DNA of 64,000 nucleotides, from contig NC_088306.1 of assembly GCF_032854445.1 (NCBI RefSeq), positions 21,237,764 to 21,301,763 of the forward strand, written 5' to 3'. The notes beneath the pieces were generated by a model. The model saw nothing but the letters and a program-made list of their open reading frames with translations, ran no database searches and was not told the origin of the DNA. Shown here piece after piece: positions 1 to 39,527 of this stretch. The translations under genes and the position numbers were made by a program. How positions within the stretch are numbered: the first letter of the stretch is position 1; every line of letters begins with the position of its first letter. Origin of the DNA: Liolophura sinensis (taxonomy: Eukaryota; Mollusca; Polyplacophora; Chitonida; Chitonidae).

Positions 1-476
1 GCAACGAAGGTGAAGGTGCCGGTAAAAATCTGATAATTATTGTTTACCACTCTATCAATCCCCCGGTCTATGTCTTTCATCTTAAGATGCACCAGGCCAG
101 ACTGACTGTCCACACGGCCAACGTGTTCTCCGTCGTATGCACAGAACGTAACATCCTCGTCTGCCGAAGCCAGGCCAAGCTGAATTGCAAACTTCACAGC
201 ACAACGCCCACCGTTCCCGCATAACCCACCTACCCGTCCATCGCTACAGTGGTACACAAACTCAAAAACACAGTAACGGTGCTGGGCATTCTCACAAGAA
301 CGGATCTCGACCAACCCGTCCGCACCAATCCCAGTTCTAGGCTCGCACAATCTGACGACAAAAGTTTCTTGAGAGACGTCTATCCGCCTGTCTCTGTTGT
401 CCATAAATATGAAATTGTTTCCCAAAGCGTTGTACTTTGAAAATTCCATTGTCTGTACCCGCCAGCAACTGTTCAT
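1..476 (-). CDS. Diaminopimelate epimerase-like protein (DapF family), N-terminal part, runs off the window
   Basis: The minus strand is open from the window edge to a TGA at 477-479. In-frame ATGs lie at 476 and 449. The second (MEFSKYNALGNN...) aligns best with the usual DapF start, so it is the likelier initiator. About 150 residues are visible. Motifs in order are ALGNNF (family GLGNDF), MDNRD, LCEPRTGIGADGL (family GxGADG), SDG, and LCGNGGRCAV, whose first Cys is the first of the two catalytic cysteines of DAP epimerases. Later come a DG..H and a VHLKMKDI segment typical of the Bacteroidetes-type proteins I know. The second catalytic Cys would lie outside the window. DapF interconverts LL- and meso-diaminopimelate; animals are not known to make DAP, so the role here is unknown. 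The Asn normally preceding [AS]DG is Cys here, which may change the substrate. There is no intron in the visible part. The family call is strong; origin and function are inference. Confidence 0.85.
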   Translation of the reverse strand, partial: MNSCWRVQTMEFSKYNALGNNFIFMDNRDRRIDVSQETFVVRLCEPRTGIGADGLVEIRSCENAQHRYCVFEFVYHCSDGRVGGLCGNGGRCAVKFAIQLGLASADEDVTFCAYDGEHVGRVDSQSGLVHLKMKDIDRGIDRVVNNNYQIFTGTFTFV

Positions 477-1499
477 TCAGTAAAATCTGTCTTCAGAAGT
501 CCCGACGTGGAGTGCTAATTACAAGTATCTATCTGTATGTGTCATGACCTACATTTCATTCGCAAGGCGTGTGAAGTAATCTTATAAACACGATACTAGA
601 GACTTTATTGTGTACATTACATATCTCCACTACGTTATTGTCAGCACGCTACGCATGACCGCGCATAAAGTGCTATTTCAGTTCGTTACGCTACCAGCGC
701 ACAGATTAACAAAGTGTTGCTCATCTCTCACGCCGTCCAATCAGAATCGATTCTGTATGCAATGAAGCCATGGTGATTCCTACTACTTCATTTATTTTCC
801 TGTAACCGGGTTGGGCTACATTAGACACAGTGGGTGCCCTACTTAAAAGACAAAGTCCATTTCTCCGTTTGAATGGCTATATTCAAGGGAAAATTATAGC
901 GGAGGGAAAACAGTGGATTTACGCTGTAATGTCACTGTAAAATAAAGACACAAGTGTCAGCTCTGATTTTTGTGCAGAATATTTACGGTGTATACAAATC
1001 TCACAATATGATAAGTCTTACAGTGTATCGGAATATTACAGTGTAACGTAGCACCCACAGGGAGAACATCACAACATTGCTGTAACCTTGACAACATACA
1101 ACATCTAAATCTGTCAAATACACTGCTCCTTTTACGACATCCCCACATATCTTAAACGTGTCCACTGAGCAACAGCAATAACCGCATGTTCATGACTTCA
1201 ATTTCCGTAGCAAAAGAGACCAGTATGGCGTAAGAGCATGCGCACATGTGAACCGTATTATATGTACACCTCAACAGCTTTGAGACAGACTAGTCAGATA
1301 TCATTATCCAACAACAACGCCATGCTGGCAGACTAAGGAATTAGCCAGATTTACACAACTTACCTTCCGTAAGTCGTCTCAGTGAAGAAGCACTAGATAA
1401 AAGAGCGGTGGAAATCCGTCCTGCAACAAGGAGTAACATTACACGTACATGCACCCTAAGGACTCATTCGTCGTCATATGACTGAAAAATTGTTAAATA
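477..1499. other. 5' flank of the DapF-like gene, no coding sequence recognised
   Basis: No conserved reading frame is visible. On the minus strand there is a strong splice-donor match (CGGAAG|GTAAGT) with its exon edge at 1364, and an AG acceptor-like site at about 469-471 just upstream of the DapF-like start. A non-coding first exon spliced to the coding exon is therefore possible, but this is weak inference. Confidence 0.3.
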
Positions 1500-1760
1500 A
1501 AAGCGTCGAATCCGACATTCATATACCATTCGTAGTCCGTAAAAGGCGTTCCAAGTCGATAATCGCAAGATCCATTTCCAAAACAACGTTTAACACTAAC
1601 TCCCAAAGACAAAGGTATGTAAGAAATTATACGAATAAGAAATAAAGCCGGTAACACACAAGAGAGAAGCGGTCATCAGTTTTCAATGATGCCGGGCAGA
1701 CAATGAATATTCCAGGCATGAATTCCATATCAAAGTTCACATTCGTAGACCTTGAATGAG
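1500..1760 (+). repeat. Dispersed repeat R1, copy 1
   Basis: This stretch aligns by eye with 42410-42650. Both share an ordered series of blocks: a GACATTC.TATACCA block, a CAATTTCCAAAAC-like block, AAAGACAAAG/AAAGCACCAAAG, AAGAGAGAAGC/AAAGAGAAGC and a GATG...AATGTTC/AATATTCC.AGGC block. It looks like an old interspersed element without coding capacity. Confidence 0.5.
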
Positions 1761-1989
1761 TTCCATGTCAAATAACAATTAAACAAGTATCTCAGTCGCG
1801 CTTTAATTGCAACTGTTCATAAAGGCATCATGCTGATGTAATGAGCATGGCTACCTTTACGGTCCCTAGCCCCAGGTTGAGCGGTATTAGATACAGTTTG
1901 AAAATGACGAGCGTTACAGACTCTAACCGATCAGATTGTGATTCCAAAGTAACGGACGATTACGTCTTTCCCGTTAATATGTAAAGATC

Positions 1990-2140
1990 TCATGCTACAA
2001 GAGGCGCCATCTATGATGTTACACATGACATACAAGATAGGCGGTTACACTGGGCAACCAGCGCCATCTATGTTGTTAAATACCATGTTCGTGATAGATA
2101 TGTACATAGGAATAACAGCGCCGCCTATGTGGTTGATCAC
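1990..2140. repeat. Short diverged tandem repeat, about 57-60 bp unit
   Basis: The motif GCGCCATCTATG recurs at about 2005 and 2081, and as GCGCCGCCTATG at about 2120. Each is followed by a TGTT/GGTT and a related spacer. There are roughly 2.4 diverged copies. The stretch from 2141 to 3045 shows nothing else I recognise. Confidence 0.4.
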
Positions 2141-3048
2141 AATGCACATCGCCAGAGATTCTGAACGCTCTGTCCATACCCGCCAACGACAGTGTTATAC
2201 TCATTGTAAAATTTGAGAAACTTATAATGAAGGCGTTTGATGGAGTATCCTTGACAAACTAGTTTTTGAACTACCAACTTGTGACGCAGATTGAAGTCAT
2301 CACAATTAACGCAAGATCTGACAAATGCTACAAGGCGAGATATGTATACGCCATATGACACACGGCCTTTGGTATATTGCTATCTAAATAAGGATAATTT
2401 ACAATATCAAAATTGAAATTATCCCTGGTTATGGAGGTCATTGCTCACAGGCCACCTTAGATTTGCTTCACCATCACCGTTGTATGGACAGCATCTAACA
2501 GCAAATCGCTTCTTTAACTCCACGATGTCTTGACGAGTTGGTCTATGGTCAGTGTGCGTGGTTTTTTTGCAGGGCAGAGGCGGAACTAACTAGTGGCGCC
2601 CTCACGGGCTGCTAACACTATTGTAAGGGGAGATAACGCATATACCATTTGCACAGTGGAAGGAGACGTCCCTCCGGCTACATTTCATTTTTATAATTTC
2701 TTATACGATAGAAATTGTACAATTTGGAATTGTACAATATTGTATAATACCGTGGGAATGAAAGCGAGGGTGTTGTTTTATTCCTTCAAATAGAATACTA
2801 GTTCACTGCATAAAGAACAGAAATGTGAAAAATTCAGTCATAATGAACATGAATTACTTTTAGAACTAAAACAGCCATAATGACGATATATTTTCTGCTA
2901 GAAAATATAACGGAAAAAGTAACATATAGCATTAGCAAGGATACTGTCGCGGTCCAATATATATTGTTTTATATTTTTATTAAATGACGACATTGGATTT
3001 AAATAGGCGCTTACGGCGTATACTTTGCAAAGTTCGGAGACCTGGGCC

Positions 3049-3492
3049 CTCTTGCACAGAAAGGTTTAAGCCATAATCGATTGTAGACCGTACAACTGAG
3101 TCAGAATTTATTCTATAAAAAAACTCGCCGCTTGCACAAAGAAATTGTAAAGCGGTTGGAATTTTTTCAAGTTACAATCGAGAAGGTAGGCCAAATTCAA
3201 TTCGTACATAGACATTGTACCAGTCAATATCTTTTCTTGTCTTCATTTTCAAAAGAGTTCTACATCATAATGATTCAGCAGCATGTGACAAAACGGTAGT
3301 ATCATATTTTTAAGACAATTATATCGCTCATCATTGTAAACCCAGTCAAAAAGTACTAACTAAGGCAAGTATTTGTTCTTAACTTTAACTGTGAGGCTGT
3401 TGTAAATATTTACAGCGGTTTTGACACGATTGTAATTTCTGATTGTAAGTTACAACAATCGTAGCTTACAATCCTTTCGTGCAAGAGGGTGT
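3049..3492. mobile_element. MITE-like element with imperfect terminal inverted repeats
   Basis: The left end begins CCCTCTTGCACAGAAAGG and the right end, reverse complemented, begins CCCTCTTGCACGAAAGG. The similarity continues inward for about 38 bases through TAAGC..A..ATTG..TTGTA. The interior is AT-rich with several GATTGTAA/TTACAATC blocks and no ORF. A second GGCCCTTTTTGCA-like end at about 3555 suggests nested or extended copies. No clear target duplication is visible. Confidence 0.6.
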
Positions 3493-3596
3493 CGATTGTA
3501 AGCTATGGCTACGATCAAGATCTTAGTGATTTGCAATCAACTTAAGCCTATGGCCCTTTTTGCAAACTGCCCCTTGGAATGAAGCTCAGCTCCGGC

Positions 3597-3830
3597 AGGT
3601 CCTGGTCATACCTTAAAGAATGGTAGGCCGTGTTATTGCTGCCTCCACTGTCGCTCAGCAATTGGAGGTTAGAGCAGAGTTGTCTCGTTGTCAGTGTAAT
3701 TGGGTGTAACTGGGTGGGGTATCATATCTGGTGCCTTCGACATGAAGGCACTTTGGGGGCATGGACTCGTACTGCCACAAGAAGACATAATTTATGTACA
3801 CACATCGTCTTGTGACTGAAAACTTGTTAA
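3597..3830 (+). mobile_element. SINE family 2 (tRNA-derived), diverged, head-truncated copy
   Basis: It contains the ordered body blocks of the copy at 33645-33957: GGTCATACC near the 5' end, a GCTCAGCA block, CAGTGTAATTGGGTG, GGGTGGGGTATCAT, and GGTGCCTTCGACAT. These read in the same order as on the minus strand of the 33.6-kb copy. The tRNA-like head is missing and the copy is old. Confidence 0.65.
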
Positions 3831-4129
3831 GTGTGACGTAAAGAGCATAAATATATGTGGTTACATGTGATCACTTTGCCCTCACTGCTCTGGTTTTACT
3901 CGGTGTGCTATACAAGTGTAAAAACAATCAAACGATAGGTGCATTTGTTTATGTACACGTATCATCTTCCTCACTAATTGTCAACTGTGGAAATGATTTT
4001 GAGAGAACAGCTATTGAAGATTGTACCCGTAAATGTAACCCGTGAAAAGGATCACAGTGTAATTGTCGAAATAACTCACGTAACCCTGGGAGCAAAGGAC
4101 GTAGCTATGATATTAATATAAAATATAAT

Positions 4130-4640
4130 TAAAGACACAGTAGTGCACAAAACTAGAGCGGTGGCAGTGCAATAGTCACGTCAGCGGTGAAATCTCTAAG
4201 AGCAGCAATCTACACACCACCTTACACCATGGCTTGAGCAAGATTAGAAAAAAAATGTGCAGTGATCTTAAAGGCATTTTATTAGATTTATTTATTTATT
4301 TGATTGGTGTTTTACGCCGCACTCAGGAATATTTCACTTATACGACAGCGGCCAGCATTATGGTGGGAGGAAACCGGGCACAACCCGGGGGAAACTCACG
4401 ACCATCCGCAGGTTGCTGGCAACTCTTCCCACTTACGGCCGGAGAGGAAGCCAGCATGAGCTGGACTTGAACTCCTCCCCCCTCCCGTTTTATTAAACGT
4501 CACTGGTCTAGAATTACTCCGAATGCTGTGTTGTGATAACATTTAACATAGAAAAAATAACAGACTACGGTTATGGTTAGTCTACCAGCAGAATCCTGGA
4601 TTACACAGAGAGTGATTTTCTGCATATTGTTATTCATTTA
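4130..4640 (+). repeat. Dispersed repeat R2 copy, split by a nested SINE
   Basis: The left half (AGAGCGGTGGCAGTGCAATAG, 4150s) and right half (CACTGGTCTAGAATTACTC, 4500s) match the continuous sequence at 7115-7370 (GAGCAGCGGTGACAATGTAATAG ... CACTGGTCTAGGTAGAATTAC). The SINE at 4273-4478 therefore inserted into an older R2 copy. Confidence 0.55.
4273..4478 (-). mobile_element. SINE family 1 (tRNA-derived), 5'-truncated, inside R2
   Basis: The plus strand reads TTTATTTATTTATTTGATTGG, then GTTTTACGCCGCACTCAGG, CCAGCATTATGGTGGGAGG and GAGCTGGACTTGAACTC, which is the reverse complement of the full copy at 34491-34747. The tRNA-like head beyond the B-box region is missing. Confidence 0.9.
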
Positions 4641-4670
4641 ATGATAAGGCTTTAATCTCTGCACTAAACT

Positions 4671-4687
4671 CCCCCCCCCCCCCCCCA
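4671..4687. repeat. Poly-C tract
   Basis: A homopolymer run of about 16 C with one flanking A-interrupted C block. Length is likely unstable or uncertain in an assembly. Confidence 0.9.
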
Positions 4688-4799
4688 CCCGATATCCGAT
4701 ATTCCCACTCTAGGGAATGAGGCTACAGTGTTCTCAGTGGACTCGTCCATTTTGAAAGGTATTTGTGAGGTTTGTTTGGAAGATGTCTTATTATACTGC

Positions 4800-5046
4800 A
4801 GGGTCCTCTGTGGCTGAGGGGCTAGAATGTCAGTGCGGCCCAATGACCCAAGAGTCTCTCAAACCCAGCTCATGCTGGCTTCCTCTCCGGTCTTACGTGG
4901 GAAAGTTTGTCAGCAGCCTGCGAATGGTCGTGGGTTTCCGCCGGGTTCTGCTTTGTGTCCTCCCACCATAATGCTGGCAGCCTTCATGTAAGTGAAATAT
5001 TCTTGAGTACGGCGTAGAACACCAATCAAATAAATAAATAAATAAA
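4800..5046 (+). mobile_element. SINE family 1, near full length
   Basis: The head resembles a tRNA (GTCCTCTGTGGCTGAGGGG, A-box-like). It is followed by the family body (CTCATGCTGGCTTCCTCTCC, GCGAATGGTCGTGGGTTTCC, CACCATAATGCTGGCAGCC) and ends in an (AAAT)n tail at 5029-5046. It faces the SINE at 4273-4478, so the pair could form a long hairpin. Confidence 0.9.
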
Positions 5047-5371
5047 TCATACCGGAAAATGTAAGTTTTATGACTAAAAGAGATTTATTTGAGTCGAAAA
5101 TGCACTTTGTGGAGGGGGAGGGGGATTTTAGGTTATTTATACTGCTTGGCTTTAATACCTTTAGGGTATTGTGCCTGTATTGTGGCAATTTATGATATTA
5201 ACTCTGGTGCTGCCATCTTTCAATTCAGAAATAATTAATCAATCAATCAATTAATTAATCAACTATTTTTCGGTAAAAGAAGAGGGAGTGGTAAAATAGA
5301 ATTACGTTTATGTACGGGTATGTATTAGTCCAGTTTTATGGTCATCAAACTGAGGTTCAAAGTTCGCACAA
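5047..5371. other. Non-coding, simple AT repeats only
   Basis: Downstream flank of copy A. It contains a G-rich GGAGGGGGAGGGGG run at about 5112 and an (AATC)n/(AATT)n stretch at 5231-5262. No gene is recognised. Confidence 0.5.
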
Positions 5372-6208
5372 TCAGAGTTTGATGTCACAGAACGACTTTT
5401 GGATTCGTCTAATTCTGGCGTCCCACTCTGTTCGTTCTGGGCCCGATATACCCCACCTTTGTCGCTTGTGCACTGGCAAAGACGGACGATTCCACAACTG
5501 GAAGTTGATATCCACCATTTCTTGTCGTCTGCCTAACAGAGACGACTGTATACCTTCGTGTTGGAATATTGTCGGTCGAGACACATATCGTTTGAACTGT
5601 AGATTAATTTCATTGAAATGAAGATAGAGGACATCATTTGGTTGCTCGCTGTAGAATAAGGTAAGAAATTTGGCTAGCTTCGCAACGTCTACAGAACGGT
5701 AAAACTTTCCAATGAATCCGATCTCTGAGAATTCCAGGCACACCCATTCGGGAACCTTTCCCATGAATCTTCTGATGGCTGTGACGTAACCAGGCACTGT
5801 AATAACGTCATCCTCCAGTTGAAGGTAGTATGCGGATATACGCTCGCTGTAAGTCATCAAGAAGGCAAAGTCCAAGTTCTGCTTGGAGCGCCACCTGACG
5901 CGGGAAACGCTGTGGTTGTACGTCATTTCTAGATAATCGGGTTTGGGTCGGATACAAAGTTGGATAAAAACTGTCCGGTGCTTCGATAGTTTGAAGTAGA
6001 CCTGACTGGAAATGCTTTCGGTATTTAAGAAGCAGCTGAGCGTTGATCGCTTCTCGCGACGTTATCTCTCGTTCCGCCAACAAGACGACAATGGTGACGC
6101 TCTGACGTTCGGTGACGTCGGTGTTATTTATCAGCGAGTCTATGGTCAGTTGAATGTATTGGGTGCCATTTGGTCTGGACGCAGTCGGAATGCCAATAGT
6201 CATGAAAC
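5372..6208 (-). pseudogene. MGAT4-like (GT54) catalytic exon, copy A, frameshifted
   Basis: The family transfers GlcNAc to N-glycan mannose in the Golgi. The exon starts after a TTTCAG acceptor, leaving GT of a split codon (phase 1), then FMTIGIPT. The first frame runs through VTIVVLLAE and FYPTLYPT. The homologous sequence then moves to another frame (MTYNHSVSRVRWRSKQNLDF, YLQLEDDV, CLEFSEIGFIGKFY, EQPNDVLYLHFNE, PTIFQHEG) and ends FCDIKL-stop. The switch lies near 5925-5960 and equals a net +1. It could be a true frameshift, an assembly error or a very short intron, though no convincing splice pair is visible. All family motifs are otherwise intact, including the LEDD acidic motif. Confidence 0.8.
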
Positions 6209-6555
6209 CTGAAAGAGCAGACGAAGTCTCACTGTATTTATGTGTTATATATTTGATTGATGTTTGTCGCAGAATTAACACATTTTTATTATACGATGGT
6301 AACAGAGAACGTCCGCCACCTGCCTAGGCGCTCTTTCCTCAAAGCCAGTTTTGACTAAGGTCAAATGTTGAATTGTTATTCAACTCGACTACTTTTTGAT
6401 AATATGATCTAAAATTCGGAATATGAAGTGAGTGTTATTTTTTAAAGTTGAATTTCAAAAAGTCCATGTAGAATTTGCCCCAGGTAGCTAACAAACAGTT
6501 TAAAACAATCTCACAATCGGAACAATTCGAAAATATGAAACGGCTCTTAAGTGTC
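6209..6555. other. Upstream (intronic) sequence of copy A
   Basis: It begins with the polypyrimidine acceptor of copy A on the minus strand. No anchor-type exon comparable to 27494-27599 was found between 6.2 and 9.2 kb. Confidence 0.4.
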
Positions 6556-6700
6556 CTGTAAACGACGATTAGCCCTTCATTATTGGGGTCGTGAGTTCGA
6601 GCCCAACTCTCGCAGGTCAGGAAATTCATCTGGCACCTGGCGAGGTACAGCATTATGCATCTCATGCTGCTCGTTTGGGCGTTAAACATTAGTAAACTCA
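6556..6700 (+). mobile_element. SINE family 3 (tRNA-derived)
   Basis: A B-box-like GTGAGTTCGAGCCC lies at about 6590-6603, preceded by a tRNA-like head. The 3' part reads CTGGCGAGGTACAGCATTA and GGGCGTTAAACATTAGTAAA. A related tail (GGCGTTAAACAAATATAAAC) occurs at about 23836. Confidence 0.6.
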
Positions 6701-6799
6701 ATGACAAGTAGTTACACCTCTATTTATCAGCAAAAATAAATCCCGTCACGTCACAAGACGTCAACGGCGACCACGGCAATATAATTATAGACATGCAGC

Positions 6800-7560
6800 A
6801 TAGAAAGTAAAACCAGAGCAGCAACGACAGTGTGACAGTTGGCAAATGGTTACATGTAACCGATAAAATACGGTCTCCTGTCAATCTGCCTCAGTTAGGG
6901 TTTTATTCTAACTGTTCATGTGAATGCTTAAACAGTACTAAATTACACGCCCCCTAGCACTATGGCTTAAACGGAAATAGGTCAAAAAAGTGCACTGATG
7001 TTCATTGCCACTGGACTAAACCATCACATTAAAACAGTGGAACATTGTGTTTTACTAAGGCTGTCACTTTATCAATAAAACCGCAAAAGATGTAAATTAC
7101 AAAGAGAAGAGTATGGTAGAGCAGCGGTGACAATGTAATAGTTGGCAAATGATCAAACATAACTCAGTCTGGTAAAATCCGGCCTCTTCATGCAAATGCT
7201 TCAGTGGTAGCAACGTAGACACTCCATGGCACCAAGACATTCGCAGAATTATGTAAAAAATTATAATGCAGCTATGTTGACAACAATGTATTAGACCTCA
7301 CTGGTCTAGGTAGAATTACTCAAAATGTTGTGCTGTCGTCACGTTACCTATTGATATTACAACGATAGCATTAATAACAATGCAAAGAGACCTGGCCAGG
7401 GGGATACTTATCAGACCAGCAAAATATCACAGTGTGAAAGATAGCATCAATTGAAAAACCTGATCTGCAACAGCAGTGTGATAGTTAGCAAATGGGTCAC
7501 ATCCAATCGGCCACATCTGGCCTCTATTTAATTTACCTCAATTACGAACTGATAAGATAT
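6800..7560 (+). repeat. Dispersed repeat R2, about 2.3 tandem diverged copies
   Basis: The block GAGCAGC..(C/G)G(A)CAGTGTGA(C/T)AGTTGGCAAATGG recurs at about 6816, 7120 and 7466. Each is followed by a CCGGCCTCTT/CGGTCTCCTG and a TTTGCCTCAGTTA-like block. The unit is about 310-350 bp. A fragment also occurs at 29095-29200. It has no coding capacity. Confidence 0.55.
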
Positions 7561-7799
7561 CGCGAACATCACTGCGCCGAATGAGTCTTAAGGGCTCTGA
7601 CCACAAGGCAAGGGCTGACCGGTGTCAGCGAGCTTGCTGTCACTGGACAAGCCGTCATGTGTGACTGGCGTCATCGGCATAGCGTCCCACAGAGGCAGAA
7701 CTATACCTTTATTAAGTCTTAAGTCTACCTCCTTCGCCGTCTAATCTGGCAAGAATAATGATAAAAGCGATGCTAAACCTCTAGTGTACAGATCTGACA

Positions 7800-7902
7800 T
7801 CATCCCGGTTTCCTCCCATCATAATGCTGGCCGCCGTCTTATAAGTGAAATATCCTTGAGTAAGCCGTAAAAAAACTATCAAATAAACAAATAAATACCT
7901 GA
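7800..7902 (+). mobile_element. SINE family 1, 3' fragment
   Basis: It keeps only the 3' body (CCGGTTTCCTCCCATCATAA, GGCCGCCGTCTTATAAGTGA) and an AAATAAACAAATAAATA tail. Confidence 0.85.
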
Positions 7903-8044
7903 TGTCTTCAAAAAGACCTGAACATTAAACAGCTACACCAATGTCAAAACCTCTGCTTTTTGACAGCAGAGGTTAAATGATAACGACCAGGACAAGTCTA
8001 AAAAGCTTTCTTAAATTTTACTAAAATGCAGAGTATTAAAAGCA

Positions 8045-8145
8045 CTATCGTCTCCCCCCAACAAAATGTTGGCCGCCGTCTTATAATTGAAATATTTTTG
8101 CGTACGGCACAAAATACCAATCAAATAAATAAATAAATAAAACCA
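8045..8145 (+). mobile_element. SINE family 1, 3' fragment
   Basis: It contains TTGGCCGCCGTCTTATAATTGA, then CAATCAAATAAATAAATAA at its end. It is more diverged than the 4.8-kb copy. Confidence 0.85.
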
Positions 8146-8202
8146 CTCTAGCTAGATTGGGGAGATGATACGGAAACAGCCCATACACCTATCGCTGACG
8201 TA

Positions 8203-8312
8203 TATAATGACTACACTTTCAAACATTATTACAGTATAGTTGCCTTACTCAATGTTATATAATGACTACACTTTCAAACATTATTACAGTATAGTTGCCT
8301 TACTCAATGTTA
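8203..8312. repeat. Perfect tandem duplication of a 55-bp unit
   Basis: Two adjacent copies, period 55, each containing AATGACTACACTTTCAAACA and TATAGTTGCCTTACTCAATG. Near identity indicates a recent event. The region from 8313 to 9234 shows no gene. An AATAAA (minus strand, about 8974) could serve copy B as a polyadenylation signal. Confidence 0.9.
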
Positions 8313-9234
8313 TACCTGTCTTCTTCTCAGGCAGGCAATACTATCACGTTACATCAGGCGAATTTTACGGACACTGCCAAAGATTTTTTTACTGTAGAAG
8401 ACTCTTCATTTGCATGAGCTAAATAGTGTTATTTCGCCGTAAATCTCTTTGAACTATGGTCTTAGCTGTGTACCATAGACGTTATCATTATCGTTTATCA
8501 TTTTAGAATTTCTGACTAGTTTCTATTAGAATTGGAATATCTCTAAAACTACATCAGAACCCCTAATCAGCGGTACTCAAATACTTGCATTTGTTTTACG
8601 ATCTGCCTGGGAGATACTGATATTGTGTAATCATTTGGTATATAGCGAAAAGGCAAAAGATTAGTTCTCTCAAAACATATGTGTGACGGGCTTTTGCGCT
8701 TCAAAGTTTTCTAGAAAGAGAGGCTGGTGTATTAATAATGTTTTCTCTCTAATATACTGACGTCATTAAGAATCGATCAGGTCAGTATAGTTTAGCACTC
8801 TAGTATAAACGCTTGGTCTAGCTGCATTTGTTGTAGTGCGAGACAATGTTGTGTTATACATAGTGTTTTCCGCAGTGGTCTCCATTGTCTCTTTAAAGGC
8901 GTTCCTTTTTCCAAGATAAGCCTCTCTGGCAGGAGCAATTTCCCTTCAAGGTCTCAACCCATTACAGCAATTTTATTCACTTTGAACACCACTGCTACTT
9001 GAGGAATGCATCATTCAGAATAGCTTTTGCTTGTCACAACTATCCCCTGTTTAGAAAACACCCTCTCACTACATTACATCAGAGTAGAACCTTTCCTTGC
9101 TGGGCTACTCGCTTCAAGAGGTTCCTTAACTTCTAAAAAAACCATCCCGTAAGAAAAATCTATCCAAGTGGAGCACTTCCACTATCCAGATCCACCATTA
9201 TTGTGTGAGTTGAAGAAACTTATGTTGTTTTTGG

Positions 9235-11694: not shown

Positions 11695-12087
11695 CTGAAA
11701 AAAAAAACAACATCAAAATCACAGGCATTACCACCAACCAGACCATCTTCCGTCATCTCCAGAAATCTCGCGTATTACAACGATTTCTGTTAACGCCTAC
11801 CGTTTCTGAAAAAATAGACAGTGAGGGTACATTTCATACCAAGCAATATGTGTCCTCTTTTTTCTTGCAATTTGTCCTAAGAAATAAAGGTGGTACAGAT
11901 TTGCTTTCCGAACCCATTTATGACCCATACAAAGTATGGTGGAATAAATTCCATTTGGATTAAAGATGCAGCGTGCATTTATTTTATGAATGTGGAACAT
12001 GGGAGCACAGAGGAGGGGAGACCTGGCTACGTTCTAAGGTGGACGAATCCCAGTAGCTGGCACATAAAGTGTGGGTTTAATGACAAC
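11695..12087. other. Upstream flank of copy C, nothing recognised
   Basis: It contains the acceptor tract of copy C. No other exon or repeat is evident before the satellite begins. Confidence 0.4.
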
Positions 12088-19433: not shown

Positions 19434-21249
19434 TGGAAATGCCTCCGCTTGTTACCATGAATTCACAACAATAACCATGACATTTATAAAGTTGCGTATA
19501 TATGTACGAGACAGCTAGATTCGAATACACAACACCCAACCTGATGAATTTCATTGGGATGATGTTCACAAAAATGGTGTTTGCCATTCCTGAAAAGGAG
19601 TGATCTACACCACTTTAATGGCGTCCTCTGTTGCGTCCTAATGATTTTAAGCCTTCCTCTCGTCGCCGTCGATCACTTTGACCATTGAGCTCACAGACGT
19701 GAATCCAGCCCTCACAGGAGGTTTGTTAAGGGGCGAGTGCACAAAGCCACGTTTAGGCTTAAGTTATACTTAATAAAATGTGAGTTAAACATTTATTTTT
19801 GAATTTTACATGCTTTAAATAAAAAACATTTGGGGATCTTGGGCCATAAATTGCGCATTTTGTCTGTTTCGAGGTTTCAAAACTTGACTTAATTCAATTT
19901 GTGGAATAGACCCTGGTACTGGAAATAGGTGTTTCATTGCGAGAACTTCCACTTCCTCCATTTATGAAACTTATCACCTTCAAAAATGTTGAGTGTCACG
20001 TTAAGTAACAATCAAATAAATAAATACTCTTATTAAACCATGTCAGATTTGTCAAGGCCCTAATATCGTGATTAAGATGAATTGCTTGTAATTTGCAGAA
20101 GTTGAAGACATGTTCTACGGCAAACACAAATAAAATACAACACGAAGAATAATTACCTTTTTTCTCCCGCCTCTTGCCGGCAACGAGTGCGCTTTGGTAC
20201 ATTTCCTCCGTAAACTCTCCGACACCCTGTCAGAAAAAAATAGTTGTAGTTTCTTCCACTTTTTGTTCCCTGAAAACTGCTTTTTTATTATTCGGGATCG
20301 TATCTAAAAAAATAATTCATTTATATATCATCGACAGGGGCTGACAGTCGTGTTGATATAAAGGAAAATAGGGCACATTTTCTAGGCATGTATCTCAGCA
20401 AAATTTTGTATGTCAGAGAAATATTATACACTGCCTTCACTTTTTTTCTTGTAGAGCGTACCACGCTGTCGCCGCATCTCTGGTTTTACTCTGTATGCAA
20501 ATCCGGAGTGTTGAGAATAAGTATAACATGGTTTGCTTGTTTGCCTGTTGTTTAAACACCATGCTCGGATTTTTTCTACTCATATGACGGCGGTAAGCAT
20601 CATGAGTGGAAGAAACCGATGTGCTTGAATTATAAACCAACAAGTTTAGGCAAATTACTAACGAAGTTTTCATGTGTGACGTACAAATATAGACCCTATA
20701 TTCAAATTTGGTGAAAAACAAATGGTCTTTAACAAATGTTAGGCTCTTACAACTGTCACTCGGTAGTTGTCAATAGCTTACTGTCACCAAGGTCAAACGA
20801 AGACTAACAGCGGAGTAATATACCCAATCCCTGAACTATTTTTATCAAGTTTGAGGCTGTTTTTCTTCTATGACTTTGACAGCCATTGTCCTTAAACTCC
20901 AGACGGGTAGAAGACGTGTAGTCTGTTTCTAGAACAATACTTTCAGTATGCTTGCTCTAATGGAATATAAGCTCGATTATCACATCAGTCCAATCTACAA
21001 ATTATACACAATCGATCTACACCGGAATCAGCAATAAACAATCTATAGGTATATGATAGAGTGAATGACTCGTGAACTTACCGCAGAGTGTAAGTGTTTT
21101 GGAACTTGTCTTAAAGTCGCTTCATCTCAAAATGGTAAAAACAGAAAAAAACGAAAAAGAATCAAAACATACTGTGGACGTTATCACCCACTTCCAATCA
21201 AAAATTGTCTTCAAAGATTTTGTTTCCTTTTGCCTATAAAGCCACTTAT
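19434..21249. other. Intergenic or intronic sequence, no gene recognised
   Basis: I see no supported exon. Fragments of older repeats are likely: a GTGCACAAAGCC...TTAAG block at 19738, and a SINE-family-1-like ACTCATATGACGGCGG piece at 20578. A 70-nt minus-strand stretch at 20157-20226 has splice-site matches at both ends but is open in all frames, so it is not called. Confidence 0.4.
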
Positions 21250-22312
21250 GGGGGACAGCAGTCACCAGGCAAAACACCTTCACGGGGTCACAGTATACTA
21301 ACAACCAGTACATATCACCATTAGTCTGGGGGCATATTTACAGTGCTGTCTAACTGAACACCATGCAGCAACGACCAGGCACAACACTCACACGCTGTCA
21401 CAGTATACTAATAGACAGTACTGATCAGCACGAGTGCAGGGGCATATTCATTGTGCTACCTCACTGAAACACCATGCAAACACCCTTACCCAGTATACTA
21501 GCAGGAATAACCTGCTAATGCTCATTCTCATCATGCAGCAGTCACGAGGCACAACACTCTCACTCAGTCACAGTATACAAACAGCCAGTATTTATCACCA
21601 TTAGACTGGCAGCATTTTCACTGTGCTGCTTCACTGAAACACCCTGCAGCAGTCAACAGGCACAACACTCGCACGCCGTAACAGTATACTTACAACCAGT
21701 ACATACCACTACTAGTCTGGAGACATATTCACAGTGCTGCCTCACTGAAACACCATGCAAACACCCTTACCCAGTATACCAGCAGGAATAGCCAATACTC
21801 ATCCTCATCATGCAGCAGTCACGAAGCACAACACTCTCACTCAGTCACAGTATACAAACAGCCAGTATTTATCACCATTAGTCTGGGAGCATTTTCACAG
21901 TGCAGCTTCACTGAAACACCATGCAGCAGTCAACAGGCACAACACTCGCACGCCGTAACAGTATACTTACAACCAGTACATACCACCACTAGTCTACACT
22001 ATTCACAGTGCAGCTTCACTGAAACACCATGCAGCAGTCAACAGGCACAACACTCGCACGCCGTAACAGTATACTAACAACCAGTACATACCACCACTAG
22101 TCTACACTATTCACAGTGCTGCTTCACTGAAACACCATGCAGCAGTCAACAGGCACAACACTCGCACGCCGTAACAGTATACTAACAACCAGTACATACC
22201 ACCACTAGTCTGGGGACATATTCACAGCGCTGCCTCACTGAAACACCATGCAAACACCCTCATGCAGTCACGGTATACTAACAGGAATAACCAATACTCA
22301 TCCTCATTATGC
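21250..22312. repeat. Tandem array of about 108-bp (and longer variant) units
   Basis: About nine units, each with CAGTATACTAACAACCAGTA, CCACTAGTCT, TTCACAGTGCTGC, CACTGAAACACCATGCA and AACACTCGCACGCCGTAA blocks. Longer units (with GGGGACATATTCACAG) and shorter ones (TACACTATTCACAG) are mixed, and some units carry a variant CAAACACCCTTACCCAG/GGAATAACC segment. Confidence 0.9.
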
Positions 22313-23280
22313 ATAAGCTTAGGTTCAACACCAATCTCTCTTTGCCTCGGGTGACGTCATAATTATTCAAAAGCTAGTTGCATGCTAGGCAATGGACGTG
22401 GAGAGTAATTTATTTTACAAAGGCTGCACCAACAAGCGGTTAGAACAAATTTGCACGCAGTAACACAACCTATACTACTATCCCTGGGAACAGACTACAT
22501 CGCGTTAATTTCCCAACATCCATCTGTAAATCTATTCTGCAGTTAGATCCTATACTGCAAGAAAGAAAAAAAAATCCCTTTTTAGGCCATATTAAACCAA
22601 AACGGGTAGACAATTTCAAATATAGCAGTGTCAGTAATAGGGTCTGTAGATAAATCGATAACAGTTCAGGAAACTGGTGTCGCCCTACGTCAAAACATGT
22701 TAACTCCGCCCAATATCCAGAATGCCACTGGTTTTGAATAGTCCTGACCTCAACCGAGGCAATGGGTTTTTGCCGCCGAAACCGAGCTCATGGACTTAGG
22801 TATTAGAAAAAGTGTTCTAACTAGATTTTACTTACAAGAAAATGAACTTCCAACCTATCCATGTCTTGTGGTTACGTGTTACTGACTAAAGGCAGTATTG
22901 GTAGCAAATATGACTGATTTTAAAGATAGCCGAATATGGGAGAACTTGGTATAAGAAACAGACTGTAGGTAAGGGATAGACAGAAATTTAGCCCCAGGTT
23001 TCCGACTTGAGAGGTGACCGCTCTAACCACTTGTCTACCAGTCAAAATTACGTTTGTAAAAACAAAAATACCGTAAGTAGCTTCCAGGATTTCTGATAGG
23101 TGCACTGAACGTTGGCAAACGTAGCGTCGAATTGACGTCAGCGAGCACGCAACGCTGGTCCATTTCTTAGTTACGTCAGAGATGCTCACACAAGGCTTCG
23201 TGCTGGCGGATGCGGGCTCACCTGTTAACCCAGAGAACTCAGTTATCTCCCTTTTCAAGAAATTTATATATTTATATTTT
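22313..23280. other. No gene recognised; possible tRNA-like SINE head
   Basis: At 22985-23040 the plus strand (CCCCAGGTTTCCGACTTGAG, CTCTAACCACTTGTCTACCA) resembles the tRNA-derived head of SINE family 2 on the minus strand. Nothing else is supported. Confidence 0.35.
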
Positions 23281-23284
23281 CATT

Positions 23285-23420
23285 TTTTTATTCATTTATT
23301 TTTTTTATTTATTTGATTGGTGTGTTACGCCGTACTCAAGAATATTTCACTTATACGACGGCAGCCAGCATAATGATGGGAGAAAAGGGGGAAATCCTCG
23401 ACAATCCGCACATTGGCAGA
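23285..23420 (-). mobile_element. SINE family 1, 5'-truncated copy
   Basis: TTTATTTATTTGATTGGTGT, then ACGCCGTACTCAAGAATATT and ACGACGGCAGCCAGCATAAT, ending near ATCCGCACATTGG. A long T-rich tract precedes it. Confidence 0.85.
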
Positions 23421-24518
23421 TCTGCTCACGTTCAGTTAAAGAAATCAAAACATCTAGTTGAGACTTTGAAATGTTATATATTGATTATTCTGCAAATAAA
23501 TATGAAAGACCGTTCAAATTAAGAAATATACTTATACATCTGGTGAAAGTGTGGCTTTGTAGAGTGACTTAATATTTTTACAATGGTAAGAACATGACAG
23601 GCTTCATTTCCCCTGCCTTCATTGTTCATGGGGTCTCGGTGACAATTACGCCCAATTGCGCAGTCTGACCACTGCGTTTACGACCACTTTTCTTTCTTTC
23701 ATCTGAAGGCGCCATATGTTGTGAAGTTCACCAGTAACTTGCCAAAGGTAGATGCTTTTCCCCGGACTCTCGGGTTGTCACCAATAATGCATAAAACGGA
23801 CTGTCATGACATAAATTAAAAACTCTCTGGCTAGGCGTTAAACAAATATAAACTAAACCAAATTTTCTCTTGAAGCAAAAACGAGGTACAGGACATTTTT
23901 ATTTTCAATGTAAAGAAAATTTTCTTATTTTCTAAATCGTATCTTTATAAAATTGGTAGGAAACAGGATGATGCTTATGAATTTTGTAACAACAAAAAAA
24001 GAATTCAATGAACATTTATTTCTACAATGTGAAAACTTTAAAAATATTGTGGTCGTCTTTTGAAAAGTGGCTAAGGCAGGAATGCACGTTTACTTGCAGC
24101 ATAAACAACGTTACAGTAATTCTAGCCATCGAAAAAACAATAATAAACACTCTACTTATATTAACAAAGCAGTGGATTTTTGGGTCAAAAACAAAAGTTA
24201 AGAAACCATTACATTTAGAAAATATACTGACAAAAATCGTCCAATAATTAGAATGAAAGAATATATTGCCACAATAACGAAGATGGAAAATCACTTCAGA
24301 GAGAAATGGAGTAGTAGCTATACGTTATTCAAAGAACAACCAAATGAATAACAAACGTGAGTGGAAATGAGAGGGAAAGACGGGCTGTTGCATATAGAGA
24401 TTAGTCCTCTGACTGGTGAAAAGAAATAGAAAATCAAATTACTTGTCATAGTACGTGTGCGAATCTGTACGTTACTCGTAAGAAAGTTCGTCAGTATAAC
24501 TTACCAAAGGTCGATGGT
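23421..24518. other. No gene recognised
   Basis: AT-rich sequence. A SINE-family-3-like tail (GGCGTTAAACAAATATAAAC) lies at about 23836. A good minus-strand splice donor (CTTTG|GTAAGTTATA) is at about 24504-24509, just 3' of the lectin-like exon. Confidence 0.4.
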
Positions 24519-24868
24519 TTACTCTGGGCATATTTGCTTTGCTACATACGTTTTCATAGGTATTAATTCTTGATTGATTATCTCACCATGAGCCCAGTTC
24601 GTGAAGTTTAGCGCAGTCCCGTCATGCCATTGATATGTACCGATCACTGCGCTGTACACCAAACCAATGAAAGCCGGTCCATAGGCGGCGCCCTGCTCGT
24701 TCAACAGCGAATGAATGAACGCGTTATTCTCCCGTGAGGCGAGGACTGCCGGCCAACCACTGGACTCGAGACAGTGGGGTATGGTGTCCTTGTACTCAAG
24801 AGAATTCACCTGGTAAAATGCCCTGTAGCAACTTTTTTCAAATCTCATCCATCCCTTGGGGCAAAAGT
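24519..24868 (-). CDS. C-type lectin-like domain exon, partial
   Basis: The exon starts after AACTTTCAG with a phase-1 acceptor (AC of a split codon), then FCPKGWMRFEKSCYRAF, the usual start of a CTLD with its first cysteines. Next are HCLESSGWPAVLASRENN (A..C...G..LA....EN pattern), AFIGL (WIGL motif), a YQWHDG (WxDG) block and NFTNWAHGE. The EPN-type calcium and sugar motif position reads EIIN, so classical mannose-type binding is doubtful. The frame ends KQICPE-stop and lacks the usual WND and second-cysteine stretch. Either an internal segment is deleted, or splicing at the donor after the stop matters. It is probably one exon of a larger secreted or membrane lectin; partner exons were not identified. 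Confidence 0.7.
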
Positions 24869-25215
24869 CTGAAAGTTACCAATAAAACGACAGAGGTTTT
24901 AATATTTTTTAAAAAATAGTTTAATGTGTACTTGTTGTTTGAGACGCAGTTGAGTGGCAATTGCATATCCAGTGTCATTCTCTGGCTCGGCCTGCCCGGA
25001 ACACGAGTCAAACTGCTCCAGGTCAGTGCAGCTGCCTTATTATTCCAACTACTGGTAAATATTCACACAAGCGAGCTAAGAATAGAAACCCCATTTCCAT
25101 CCCCATATACAAACACCTAAAAACAAAAATAATGTCTTAAGTTAGGCACTGATTGTAGAAACGGAATAAACAAAGTACATACAAAGAAATATTTTGTTAC
25201 TGCCAATAGGGGAAA
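24869..25215. other. No gene recognised
   Basis: Intronic or intergenic flank upstream of the lectin-like exon. Nothing supported. Confidence 0.4.
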
Positions 25216-25471
25216 GTTGTATTTATTATTTTACTTTATTTGATTGCTGTTTTAATACATACTCAAAGATATTTCACCTATACCACCTATGCTAGCAGTA
25301 TGGTGGAGGAAACCCATGCTTATGCGCAGGTTGCTGACAGACCTTCCGTCGTATGGCCGGAGAGGAAGCCAGTATAAGCTGCAATTGAACTCAAAGCGAC
25401 CACAATGGTGAGAGGCTCTAGAGTCCTTGCGCGGATGTGGCGCGCTAACCAGCGTGGTCACAGAGGAGGCC
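25216..25471 (-). mobile_element. SINE family 1, near full length
   Basis: On the plus strand TTATTTGATTGCTG, then ACATACTCAAAGATATTTCAC, GGCCGGAGAGGAAGCCAG, AATTGAACTCAAAGCGACC (B-box side), CGCGCTAACCAGCGTGGTCA (A-box side) and GAGGAGGCC at the 5' end of the element. Confidence 0.9.
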
Positions 25472-25649
25472 TCCAGGTTGTAATATCACAGCGTTCATAC
25501 GGAGTGAGCTCTGTGTGTGTGTCTGTAGGGTTAAATGCATTGTGTTGTAATCTGTATCATGGACTTGCCATAGTAAATAATACTGACATTTGGCATGGCT
25601 GTGCACTGCCGACTCACTGGACTCACTGGCTCAATTTATACTGAAATAT

Positions 25650-27105
25650 TTTACCTGACAAACCTCCGCTCAGCATTGGTTACCTGATAAACCACCGCCC
25701 ATCACCAGGTACCGGAAAAAAACAACGCCCATCACCATGTACCTGTCAAACCAACGCCCATCATCACTCACTTGGCAAATCACTGCCCATCACCAGGTAC
25801 CTGACAAACCTCCGCTCATGACCAGACATCTGACAAACCACCGTTCATCACCAGGTACTTGACAAACCACAGCTCATCACCGAGTACCTGACCACCCTCT
25901 GCTCATCACCAGGTATCTGACAAACCACCGTCCATCACCAGGTACCTGACAAACCACCACTCATCATCAGGTGTCTGACAAACTTCTGCTTATTAACAAG
26001 TACCTGACAAATCACTGCCCATCACCAGGTATTTGACAAACCACCGTTCATCACCAGGTACTTGACAAACCACAGCTCATCACCAGGTACCTGACCACCC
26101 TCTGCTCATCACCAGGTACTTGGCAAATCACCGTCAATCACCAGCTACCTGACAAACCTCCGCTCACCACCAGTTACCTGCAAAGCACCGTGTATCACCA
26201 GGTACCTGACAAACCACAGCTCATCACCAGGTATCTGGCAAACCTCCGCTCATTAGCAGGTACCTGACAACCTCTGCTCATCAACAGGTACTTGGCAAAT
26301 CAGCTCCCATTAGCTGGTACCTGACAAACCACCACCCATAACCAAGTACCTGACAAACCAACGCCCATCCCCAGGTACCTAACAAGCCAACGCCCATTAC
26401 CGGGTACCTGACACACCACCGCTAATCACCATTTACCTGAGAAGCCACCGCTCCCCACTAGGCACCTGTCAAACCACCATCTATCACCAGGTACCTAACA
26501 AACCACCGCCCATTACCATGTAAATGACAAACCACCGCCCATCATCAGCAACCTGGCAAACCACCGTCCATCACCAGGTACCTGACAAACCCCTGCTCAT
26601 CAGTATGTACCTGGCAAACCTCCGCTCATCTCTATGCACCTGACAAACCTCCACTCATCACCAGATATCTGACAAACTACCACCGATCATCAGGTATCTG
26701 ACAAACCATCACCCACCACCATACACCTGACAAACCACCGCACATCACCAGGTGCCTAACAAACGACCACCCATGCAGCTGACAAACTACCGCTATTCAC
26801 TAGGTGCCTGACACTCCACCGCCCATCACCCCGCAATTCACAAACCACCGTCCATCATCAGGTGACTGACAAAACTACCGCTCGTCACTAGGTACCTAAC
26901 AAACCACCGCCCATTACCAGGTACTAACAAACCACCACTGATCATCAGGTAGTTGACAAACCGTTTCATACCCCATGTGCCTGACAACCACGTCAATCAC
27001 CAGGTACCTGACAAAACCACCGTTCATCACCAGGTACCTGACACACCACTTCATATCCCTATGTACCTGACAACTACCGTCCATTACCAGGTAACGGACA
27101 AACCT
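25650..27105. repeat. 29-bp satellite array built on the palindrome CAGGTACCTG
   Basis: About 50 units of roughly 29 bp with the consensus blocks CACCAGGTACCTGACAAACC and ACCGCCCATCA. Many units keep the perfect 10-bp palindrome CAGGTACCTG; others are diverged. The unit is not a multiple of three, and short ORFs in it have no meaning. Confidence 0.93.
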
Positions 27106-27493
27106 GCCTTTGAGGAAAAAACTCAAACCGATGCTTTTAAAACACCGTAGCACAAATTAATCAAACTTAGATTTAAACTTACAGTTTCAATACAAACATG
27201 GCATTTGTAGTTCAACTTAGATAACGCTATTTGTCGAATAAAAAGTAGGGATAGAATGAAATAAATGTGGTTTGAAGAATGAACCCTAAGTGAAGTTACT
27301 CAAGTTCAAACACATAGGCTTTTATCACCACCTAGCAATTGGGACTAGTCAAGCTGATTGTCAATATACGGCACGCATTTTACTTTACGTTTAGTTTAGC
27401 TACTTTTTTAAATGTGATGAGGAAATCAAACCTGGGCCTTTTTCACCATCTGTTACACATGTACTATAATCCAACGTACGAAAATGTTCTTAC
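27106..27493. other. No gene recognised
   Basis: Between the 29-bp array and the anchor exon; intronic if the anchor exon is real. Confidence 0.4.
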
Positions 27494-27599
27494 CTGTCTT
27501 CATCTCTCGCTTGCTCTGAATGACCGGGCCGTCATTCTTCAACCAAATCAAAATATATATCAGAAACACGGGGATAAATAGCAGGGAGTACTTTCTCAT
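27494..27599 (-). CDS. First exon encoding a type II membrane anchor, probably of an MGAT4-like gene
   Basis: On the minus strand an ATG at 27599 opens 35 codons (MRKYSLLFIPVFLIYILIWL, then a polar stretch ending REMKT) and ends in a strong donor, ACAG|GTAAG, in phase 1. The layout (Met, two basic residues, about 17 hydrophobic residues, polar stem) is that of a Golgi type II anchor. It aligns without gaps with the exon at 57572-57671 (8 of the first 21 residues identical, including MR, LxY, IW and K). The phase-1 donor fits the phase-1 acceptors of all four MGAT4-like catalytic exons; the downstream ones are A, B and C. It would also fit the lectin-like exon at 24868. Linkage to any of them is inference. 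Confidence 0.6.
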
Positions 27600-29089
27600 T
27601 GCCGTCTCTTCCCTTCGCCTTTACGTCCTATTAACTGCGGTTACCGTAGGCATACTTCCGAAAAGAATCTATCTGATGTTAACGTTACACCACATAAGCA
27701 GTTTCCCAGGTATAGAGTGACGAGTAAACCTGATATAGGCTTGATAGGGACGCGTAATGCGCCGAGCGCAAATCCCAGCTGCCTTGTAGGTTGCTTATGG
27801 CTAGAGCCTTATAATTACATGCACGCTTTGTGTGAAGCAACAAGTTCCCGATAGCACGCCCTAGCAACGCCAAACTTATCTGCACCATAGCGGAGTACAT
27901 AGCATACAAAAGGCTATATTTACTATGCCAACAGAAAAAAGACACCTATTCAAAGTGATATAAAGAGGAAAGTTTTAGTTAGGATCATCCAGAGAAAAAA
28001 GGTTAAGATACATTTCAATTTGTATGGGGTCATGTGTTCGAATCGACATTTAGCCCATTTTCAGAATAAACAGCAAAATAATTCACGATCATAGACATAT
28101 ATGTACTTTATAGACCAAATGTACTTTAGCCTGTAAGCACACATAACAATGTTCACTTATCAAGTTGGATAAATTGTGGTGTTCAGTGCGTTTTGGAACT
28201 AAGTTAAGCTTTGAATTTGGTTTAATTAGTGGTGGGAGGGGGGTAGTAAGTACGAAATGATACTTACAAAACTTGGTGGCATACTCTCTTTATTTCACGT
28301 GGACATTAAAAGTTACCGACAGATAGCCTTTGCATGCAAGGATGACTCCAGTGTACTTGAAAATCGAATGTGTATTTATTTCGTATTTTTCCTTTAAACT
28401 GTATTACCGCAGAAGCCAGGATTCGACTGGTGGACTAAGCAATCCAGTGCCCTCGTCCCTTTGCATTGTTTACATGTATTATTAGATGTGACGACAACAC
28501 AGCAAAATATAAGGTCTTATTTTTTATCTTGAAACCCTGTTGCACGGTTTATAGAGTTACTCGGACATCTGATTAAGCTACGTGAAATTCTGCAGGTATC
28601 CCAAATGGTGTTAACAGATACGTTAAATTCTGCAGGGCGATGTATCAACATCATACACGTATCCCAATAGATGATTACATCGCTCCATATGAATGAAAGG
28701 GTTTAAGGCTCCAAGATTGCTGTCATAGAATATGGGATATATAAAAGCCCATGATTCACTAAAAATGGGAGGAAATTTTTGAGATGTATAGCCCGCGGCT
28801 AGCTGGTGCCCGTTCCTTCCATATTAACACCATTCAACGTCTGAAATGCAGTCAGTTAAACTTCAATATTTAATGAAAACGACATTGTCATCGTGAGTTC
28901 CTCTAGAGGATTCTCAGTCGACCGAGAAAAAAAGAAGCTTGGAACAGAGTTATACCGGCGTCCATTTGTATACAGCAAGTTAACTGAGAACAGAAATCGA
29001 GACAACAACGCCGGGATGGGCCTGTTTGAATCTGTAAGTTCCAGGTGGCATCATAACATCACCAGCACAAGATCATTTTAAACGTACAG
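27600..29089. other. No gene recognised
   Basis: Upstream of the anchor exon; promoter or intergenic sequence. A G-rich GGGAGGGGGG run lies at about 28234. No coding signal is convincing on either strand. Confidence 0.4.
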
Positions 29090-29205
29090 AATAGAGAGGA
29101 AAAACAGGGGAGTGACGACAGGGTGATAGCTGGCAAATGGCATTTAGCATTTCACGTAAATGGTGAAATACTGCCTTTTGTCAATTTGCCCAAACTATGA
29201 GAAAA
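29090..29205 (+). repeat. Fragment of dispersed repeat R2
   Basis: GTGATAGCTGGCAAATGG, GGTGAAATACTGCC and TTGTCAATTTGCC match the R2 units at 6.8-7.5 kb in order. Confidence 0.5.
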
Positions 29206-29237
29206 AAATTCCATTTTTAAGTCGTATTTTGTATATC

Positions 29238-29365
29238 TTAATTTATTTATTTGATAGCTGCTTTACGCCGTACTCAAGAATATTTCACTTATAAGACGGG
29301 TGTCAGCATTATGGTAGGAGGAAACCATGGAGAGCCCGGGGGAAACCCAACACCATCGGCAGTTT
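29238..29365 (-). mobile_element. SINE family 1, 5'-truncated copy
   Basis: TTATTTATTTGATAGCTGC, ACGCCGTACTCAAGAATATT, TCAGCATTATGGTAGGAGG and GGGGGAAACCCAACACCATC, then breaks off. Confidence 0.88.
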
Positions 29366-39310: not shown

Positions 39311-39527
39311 ATTCATTTTATTTATTTATTTATTTGATTGGTGTTTTACGCCGTACTTAAGAATATGTCACTAGTACGACGGCGGCCAGCATTATGGTGG
39401 GAGGAAACCGGGCAGAGCCAGGGGGAAACCCACGACCATCCGCAGGTTGCCGTCAGACCTTCTCTCGTACTGCGGAGAGGAAGCCAGCATGAGCTGGACT
39501 TGAACTCACAACGACCGCATTGGTGTT
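39311..39527 (-). mobile_element. SINE family 1 copy
   Basis: TTTATTTATTTATTTATTTG tail complement, then ACGCCGTACTTAAGAATATG, GCGGCCAGCATTATGGTGGG and TGGACTTGAACTCACAACG at the B-box side; truncated before the A box. Confidence 0.9.

Follow-up and report, generated by a model that had tools for sequence, protein, structure and literature searches.

At the left edge of the 64,000-nucleotide window (the whole stretch of Liolophura sinensis DNA analysed here, placed by genome search at G000:C12:21237764-21301763; the assembly comprises 632 contigs with 609,464,459 bases in total), the - strand carries an open frame at 3-476 that comprises the first 158 codons of a 286-codon frame of the DapF family. 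The complete frame (locus L005, 1583-2440) is intact and uninterrupted, with no intron in its coding part. An earlier note, made from the letters of the window, had read GIGADG, SDG and CGNGGRC in this order from a frame running off the window, and all three motifs were indeed present in the open frame, which exits at the left edge. Followed leftwards, as proposed there, the gene showed its second catalytic Cys within GETLACGTG and ended with a TAA after 286 codons, approx. 385 bases left of the window. Approx. nine residues precede the aligned bacterial start. The assignment to the DAP epimerase fold family was borne out by profile matches that span both halves of the protein and lie above the curated cut-offs, namely, Pfam PF01678 with 2.5e-18 and 66.7 bits (cut-off 34.7) and the NCBIfam DapF model TIGR00652 with 4.1e-34 and 118.2 bits on residues 10-284 (equivalog cut-off 114.65).

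The earlier note had also placed animal genes on the same contig, in agreement with the MGAT4-like and 7tm_1 genes recognised within the window (Table 1). The MGAT4-like frames form a cluster that is partly co-duplicated with DapF; one of the five frames is below the PF04666 cut-off. Both rhodopsin-type GPCR frames have a single exon and the first of them lies inside the repeated unit described below. A dispersed element of approx. 90 bp, also found beside DapF copies on C12 and C13, may be the SINE mentioned in the earlier note. Elsewhere in the assembly, contig C99 has seven COX1 matches approx. 15.5 kb apart, as in a mitochondrial-genome concatemer, while C632 (15,209 bases) has one, and a haemocyanin gene on C8 gave eight functional-unit matches compared with 0 of 14 control genomes.

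Table 1. Features of the window and related loci in the chiton genome. Positions are those of the window unless a contig is given.
Feature	Position	Strand	Basis
DapF-family gene, 5' part (158 codons); remainder left of the window, whole gene G000:C12:21237382-21238239	1..476	-	
First ATG of the DapF gene	476	-	
ATG of the DapF gene aligning with bacterial starts	447-449	-	alignment
GIGADG motif	315..332	-	read from frame
Cys replacing Asn64 (distal DAP-carboxylate contact)	246..248	-	alignment
SDG motif	237-245	-	read from frame
CGNGGRC motif, first catalytic Cys at 219-221	201..221	-	frame and alignment
Repeated DNA: DapF flanks and stretch with MGAT4-like gene (5372-5926)	1..8594		genome alignment, profile match
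Additional piecewise-matched DNA of the repeated unit, including GPCR gene (30546-31622)	20703..32291		genome alignment, profile match
MGAT4-like frames	5372-5926, 9235-10074, 10802-11296, 11342-11746, 43086-43880 (-)		PF04666
GPCR frames	30546-31622, 36518-37597 (-)		7tm_1
Dispersed element, approx. 90 bp	4286-4376, 4960-5049, 7806-7896, 23296-23386, 29238-29326, 34652-34734, 39317-39410		
Degenerate DapF relics	C12: 20.923, 20.984, 21.045, 21.104, 21.223 Mb	+	
Degenerate DapF relic	C12: 20.9106-20.9110 Mb	-	
LysA (diaminopimelate decarboxylase), intact, seven exons	G000:C6:34558009-34564753 (locus L108)	-	spliced model

Copies, tandem array and selection

A C12 protein used as query gave 29 matches in the whole genome, which were sorted into 17 fragments and eleven near-full-length frames, one of which accounts for two matches. 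C12 has eight of these frames, from 20.911 to 21.238 Mb, and C13 the other three, one at 0.72 Mb and two at 23.16 Mb. An uninterrupted frame with both catalytic Cys was seen in nine of the eleven, and the two catalytic cysteines (73 and 217) are found together in ten, the window gene included. Decay is under way in the family: the copy at C12:21.002 Mb has lost its first catalytic Cys and the stretch around it through an in-frame deletion, the copy at C13:23.159 Mb has one TGA in frame, and the fragments include degenerate relics, some of which lie on the strand opposite to the full copies. The + strand relics on C12 sit approx. 15-24 kb left of full copies. Like the window gene, the other uninterrupted frames have no intron within the coding part. 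The coding GC content of the frames is 45-50% compared with 40% for the window, and poly(A)-signal words occur up to 600 bases past the stop in 9/11 frames, a count without chance control. PF01678 matched all seven frames on which Pfam was run (of eleven). Of the five subjected to NCBIfam, four passed the TIGR00652 cut-off, with 155.2 bits for the copy at C13:0.72 Mb; the frame at C13:23.156 Mb reached 104.9 bits vs 114.65.

Six C12 copies, the window copy among them, form a tandem array with a spacing of approx. 54-61 kb. The flanks of the window copy matched those of the five other array copies, in pieces, with 95.5-97.6% identity. DNA beside another array copy matched window 2534-8594 with 94.7% identity, and window 20703-32291 was matched piecewise at variable identity; since the matches extend over these stretches, the repeated unit also carries an MGAT4-like and a GPCR gene. 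The array is a segmental tandem duplication of animal chromosome. For the older copies at C12:20.911 and 20.914 Mb, only the coding part aligned with the array (approx. 78-84%), while the flanks were unaligned save for a short dispersed repeat.

A contaminating join was one of two alternatives offered by the earlier note. Frames without an intron in the coding part would suit bacterial contaminant DNA joined to the contig, and their GC content is possible for bacterial DNA, too. However, the eleven copies are diverged, lie on two scaffolds of approx. 30 Mb and are co-duplicated with MGAT4-like and GPCR genes and with non-coding flanks, and the nearest bacterial row was only 43% identical to the most canonical chiton copy. 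The join is excluded because the window copy sits in a tandem array that was duplicated together with animal genes, and the probability left to it is negligible.

Selection was estimated as dN/dS by Nei-Gojobori with 95% bootstrap intervals. The ratio was 0.31 (0.22-0.44) for C12:20.911 vs C12:20.914, 0.28 (0.19-0.40) for C12:20.914 vs the window copy and 0.29 (0.20-0.40) for C12:20.911 vs the window copy. Within the C13:23.16 Mb pair, it was 0.09 (0-0.16) at a dS of 2.4, which is near saturation. Among the young array copies, values between 0.2 and 1.1 were obtained, based on few changes. Judged from these ratios, the older DapF copies are duplicates under purifying selection. It is rather unlikely that the C12 array is a decaying by-product of segmental duplication and only the copy at C13:0.72 Mb is useful. 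The loss of a catalytic Cys in one array copy, the abundance of relics and the poorly determined ratios of up to 1.1 among young copies would fit such decay, but C12:20.911, C12:20.914 and the window copy have retained open frames and catalytic residues at a dN/dS of approx. 0.3 with flanks that can no longer be aligned.

Origin of the chiton DapF family

GTDB was scanned with two peptide patterns, which yielded 56 loci with no Bacteroidota record among them; two Chlamydiia records scored best. Under wider sampling, matches were obtained in 160 of 190 genomes of the phylum of these Chlamydiia records at 1e-10 and in 163 of 288 genomes of the phylum containing the Lentisphaerae record at 1e-25. 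From the plasmid and phage collections came Bernardetia (Bacteroidota, 2e-43) and MT839160 (5e-48), a faecal record labelled 'phage' and unverified. By its other frames, we take MT839160 to be bacterial DNA of Bacteroidales type.

A tree with bacterial DapF proteins, also proposed in the earlier note, placed the chiton proteins in one clade adjoining Bernardetia. It had 49 rows, namely, seven of the eleven chiton frames and 42 of the 89 bacterial rows, with no eukaryotic DapF row; the chiton clade obtained 97/91, its junction with Bernardetia 100/92 and the next one, with MT839160, 100/99. A tree of 29 rows, from which long branches had been removed (six of the eleven chiton frames, 23 of the 89 bacterial rows and again no eukaryotic row), was in agreement with 96/85, 99/92 and 100/99. 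AU tests rejected the chiton rows joined with Chlamydiota (p 0.0004), Verrucomicrobiota (0.0005), Proteobacteria or cyanobacteria. Bernardetia inside the chiton rows was not rejected (p 0.123), and two separate acquisitions are therefore possible. Only three rows represented Bacteroidota, and of these the Bacteroides row (L100) grouped in the other half of the tree. A chlamydial source, prompted by the best-scoring Chlamydiia records, was ruled out by the trees and the AU test. A viral source was also considered and dropped, as 0/240 candidate stretches matched in the first viral scan and 2/23 in the second, both more weakly than the bacterial matches.

The other alternative in the earlier note, a horizontally acquired gene, is thus the one supported by the paralogues on two scaffolds, the tandem array with animal genes and the position next to Bacteroidota. 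The trees suggest that the chiton family arose by horizontal transfer from a Bacteroidota-type bacterium followed by duplication. Alternatively, DapF may have reached the chiton via another eukaryote or be an old eukaryotic gene that resembles Bacteroidota only owing to the eukaryotic sampling, which we consider rather improbable. A dapF of prokaryotic origin is reported for the choanoflagellate Salpingoeca rosetta in the part of PMC7971027 at hand, and our trees held no eukaryotic row. Against this, plant DapF (3ejx) matches cyanobacterial DapF (8.3e-118) far better than it does the chiton protein (2.3e-21), which makes a plant-type source unlikely.

Active sites, LysA and the predicted role of the window copy

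Residue numbers are those of H. influenzae, transferred to an E. coli-type row, in which the letters agree. Bacterial residues were counted in 86 of the 89 rows, leaving out the duplicate place L080 and the short rows L057 and L068; the rows had been gathered through their similarity and form a non-random set. Positions 64, 190, 208 and 209 were Asn, Asn, Glu and Arg in 86/86 rows, and position 157 varied (56 Asn, 27 Val and one each of Ser, Ile and Thr). The catalytic Cys positions were occupied by Ser in 9 and 8 of the 86 rows. Seven rows (L051, L053, L056, L064, L066, L067 and L069) had Ser at both and three more (L055, L059 and L065) at one of the two; these are possibly a Ser-type subfamily.

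The C13:0.72 Mb protein was identical to Bernardetia at 13/13 active-site positions compared, including the distal DAP contacts. The window copy retains Asn11, Cys73-Gly74-Asn75, Glu208 and Cys217-Gly218-Thr219; its positions 64, 157, 190 and 209 are occupied by Cys, Thr, Val and Cys, respectively. It thus possesses all contacts of the alpha-carboxylate and alpha-amino group (Asn11, Gly74, Asn75, Gly218 and Ser/Thr219, roles as given in the available text of PMC8225329), while the distal contacts Asn64, Asn190 and Arg209 of DAP epimerase are replaced and Glu208 is kept. None of the three losses, which affect the non-reacting end of DAP, was seen in any of the 86 bacterial rows. The array sisters resemble the window copy, except for Phe190 in C12:21.177 and the absence of position 64 in C12:21.002. 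Of the older copies, C12:20.914 carries Arg64 and Ser157. Both members of the C13:23.16 Mb pair carry Leu64 and Asn190, with either Ser or Arg at position 209. Given the fact that C12:20.911 keeps Asn190 and C13:23.159 keeps Arg209, the distal contacts would have been lost stepwise.

Lysine is regarded as an essential amino acid of animals. The absence of the DAP pathway from animals, as stated in the earlier note, is only partly true of this genome, which encodes a full-length LysA. Its exons were found on C6 by genome search and seven of them, with GT-AG borders, could be joined to a protein of 466 residues. This model scored 407 bits against TIGR01048 (equivalog cut-off 297.9) on residues 56-445. 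What we take to be the PLP-lysine, HxG, EPGR and CES motifs were visible in the alignment to solved relatives. The best of these were two diaminopimelate decarboxylases from Arabidopsis (1.5e-119, 403 bits), followed by a chain with 309 bits; the top score against plasmid records was 265 bits among the best 10 of 327 matches. Among the solved structures and plasmid records searched, the chiton LysA looks plant-like. A table of foreign-donor genes in corals has a row for a diaminopimelate decarboxylase assigned to algae (PMC4878875, in the portion available).

The exon-by-exon search of the chiton genome, which may overlook a gene, gave no match for DapB (PF05173 and PF01113; 11/14 and 12/14 control genomes positive), Asd (TIGR01296; 14/14 controls positive) or plant-type DapL (TIGR03542; 14/14 controls positive, 2 above cut-off). 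Because these upstream genes were not found, salvage would be expected, not synthesis from aspartate, and DapF and LysA could together salvage dietary diaminopimelate to lysine.

The best explanation, to which we assign a probability of approx. 0.55, is that a bacterial DapF of Bacteroidota type entered the nuclear genome of the chiton and then gave three lineages, one of which kept a canonical enzyme working with LysA, while the window lineage became a non-DAP racemase or epimerase. If expressed, the C13:0.72 Mb copy with its bacterial active site would most likely interconvert LL- and meso-diaminopimelate (DAP), and the host-encoded LysA would decarboxylate meso-DAP alongside it; free LL- and meso-DAP from food bacteria and algae could thereby be turned into L-lysine. 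The window lineage, multiplied by tandem segmental duplication, would have become a cofactor-independent two-cysteine amino-acid racemase or epimerase for a substrate without the second carboxylate of DAP. One Cys thiolate would remove the alpha proton and the opposite Cys thiol give one back from the other face, with the alpha-carboxylate bound by the Gly-Asn and Gly-Thr loops adjacent to these cysteines. For the window copy, catalysis kept and substrate changed is the simplest reading of its residues.

A rival explanation would be that the window copy has remained a DAP epimerase, that every copy takes part in lysine salvage together with LysA and that the substitutions are tolerated. It could draw on the TIGR00652 equivalog cut-off that the window copy still passes, on the LysA gene and on the relaxed specificity that is possible in PVC-type DapF (PMC5885031, as far as its available text goes). 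It is nevertheless quite improbable, as Asn64, Asn190 and Arg209 were invariant in the bacterial rows. Moreover, the activity of CgDapF was almost abolished by alanine at N15, N74, N85, N159, N194, E212, R213 or T223, among them each site that matches 64, 157, 190 or 209 (PMC5296763, from the passages at hand). A racemase or epimerase with a new substrate remains the best reading because the DapF-derived enzyme PddB, described below, shows a comparable loss of residues.

More tentatively, and at somewhat less than even odds, the chiton may have joined the last two DAP-type lysine steps from separate sources, a Bacteroidota DapF and a plant-like LysA, without the upstream steps, to turn dietary diaminopimelate into lysine, with one DapF branch becoming a new amino-acid racemase that is now multiplying in a tandem array.

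Comparison with known systems

The chiton proteins resemble bacterial DapF (TIGR00652) of the Bacteroidota type (Bernardetia, L094) over their full length and share with it both catalytic Cys and the alpha-carboxylate loops. A one-residue insertion before the second Cys is common to the chiton and the aligned rows of Bacteroidota, Verrucomicrobiota and Chlamydiota. Unlike bacterial DapF, the chiton genes form an animal nuclear family of eleven frames, and the window lineage has the three distal DAP contacts replaced.

PddB is a DapF-derived 2,4-diaminobutyrate racemase of actinobacteria, encoded beside a poly-Dab synthetase gene. Like the window protein, it has retained both Cys together with Asn11, Glu208 and the contacts formed by Gly-Asn and Gly-Ser/Thr, and positions 64, 157, 190 and 209 are all replaced in the two proteins, although by different letters (Arg209 by Val in PddB and by Cys in the window protein). 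The N-terminal extension of 27-28 residues in PddB is absent from the window protein with its approx. nine residues (all on PddB from the accessible sections of PMC8225329). A poly-Dab synthetase neighbour was not seen among the frames scanned in the window, of which MGAT4-like and GPCR genes were recognised. Among solved structures, the bacterial O-ureido-serine racemase (7vdy) ranked second for the C13:0.72 Mb protein; in their alignment, it has Thr at the place of Asn64 and Tyr at that of Arg209 and retains Asn at those of 157 and 190. DapF from Chlamydia trachomatis, in the half of the DapF tree to which the chiton proteins are related, is a DAP epimerase with PLP-dependent glutamate racemase activity according to the part of PMC5885031 available, and is thus a precedent for action on another amino acid. 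The model for the bifunctional chlamydial DapF, NF038284, was tried on five chiton frames and rejected, as these scored 53-105.5 bits vs a cut-off of 350. Within one animal genome, the active sites of the chiton paralogues grade from the DAP type to a non-DAP type, which bears on substrate change in cofactor-independent racemases.

Our searches of the open-licence PMC literature for DapF in molluscs brought up no report. For sap-feeding insects that carry symbionts, dapF and lysA encoded by the animal itself are on record (PMC4607527, PMC8659303), and a mollusc with both enzymes would, if true, be a further independent case. In the sections available, the whitefly Bemisia tabaci and the mealybug Planococcus citri carry both genes by horizontal acquisition (PMC4607527), and the whitefly dapF is described as a single intronless copy of Enterobacterales type, with dapB present and introns gained by one lysA copy (PMC8659303). 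The chiton genome likewise has both terminal lysine-pathway genes, and an intronless dapF beside a lysA with introns is common to chiton and whitefly. In contrast to the whitefly, the chiton has several dapF copies that resemble those of Bacteroidota and include altered active sites, DapB was not found in the genome search and LysA looks plant-like. Animal dapF and lysA are thus already known, and the chiton differs by donor, copy number and altered active sites.
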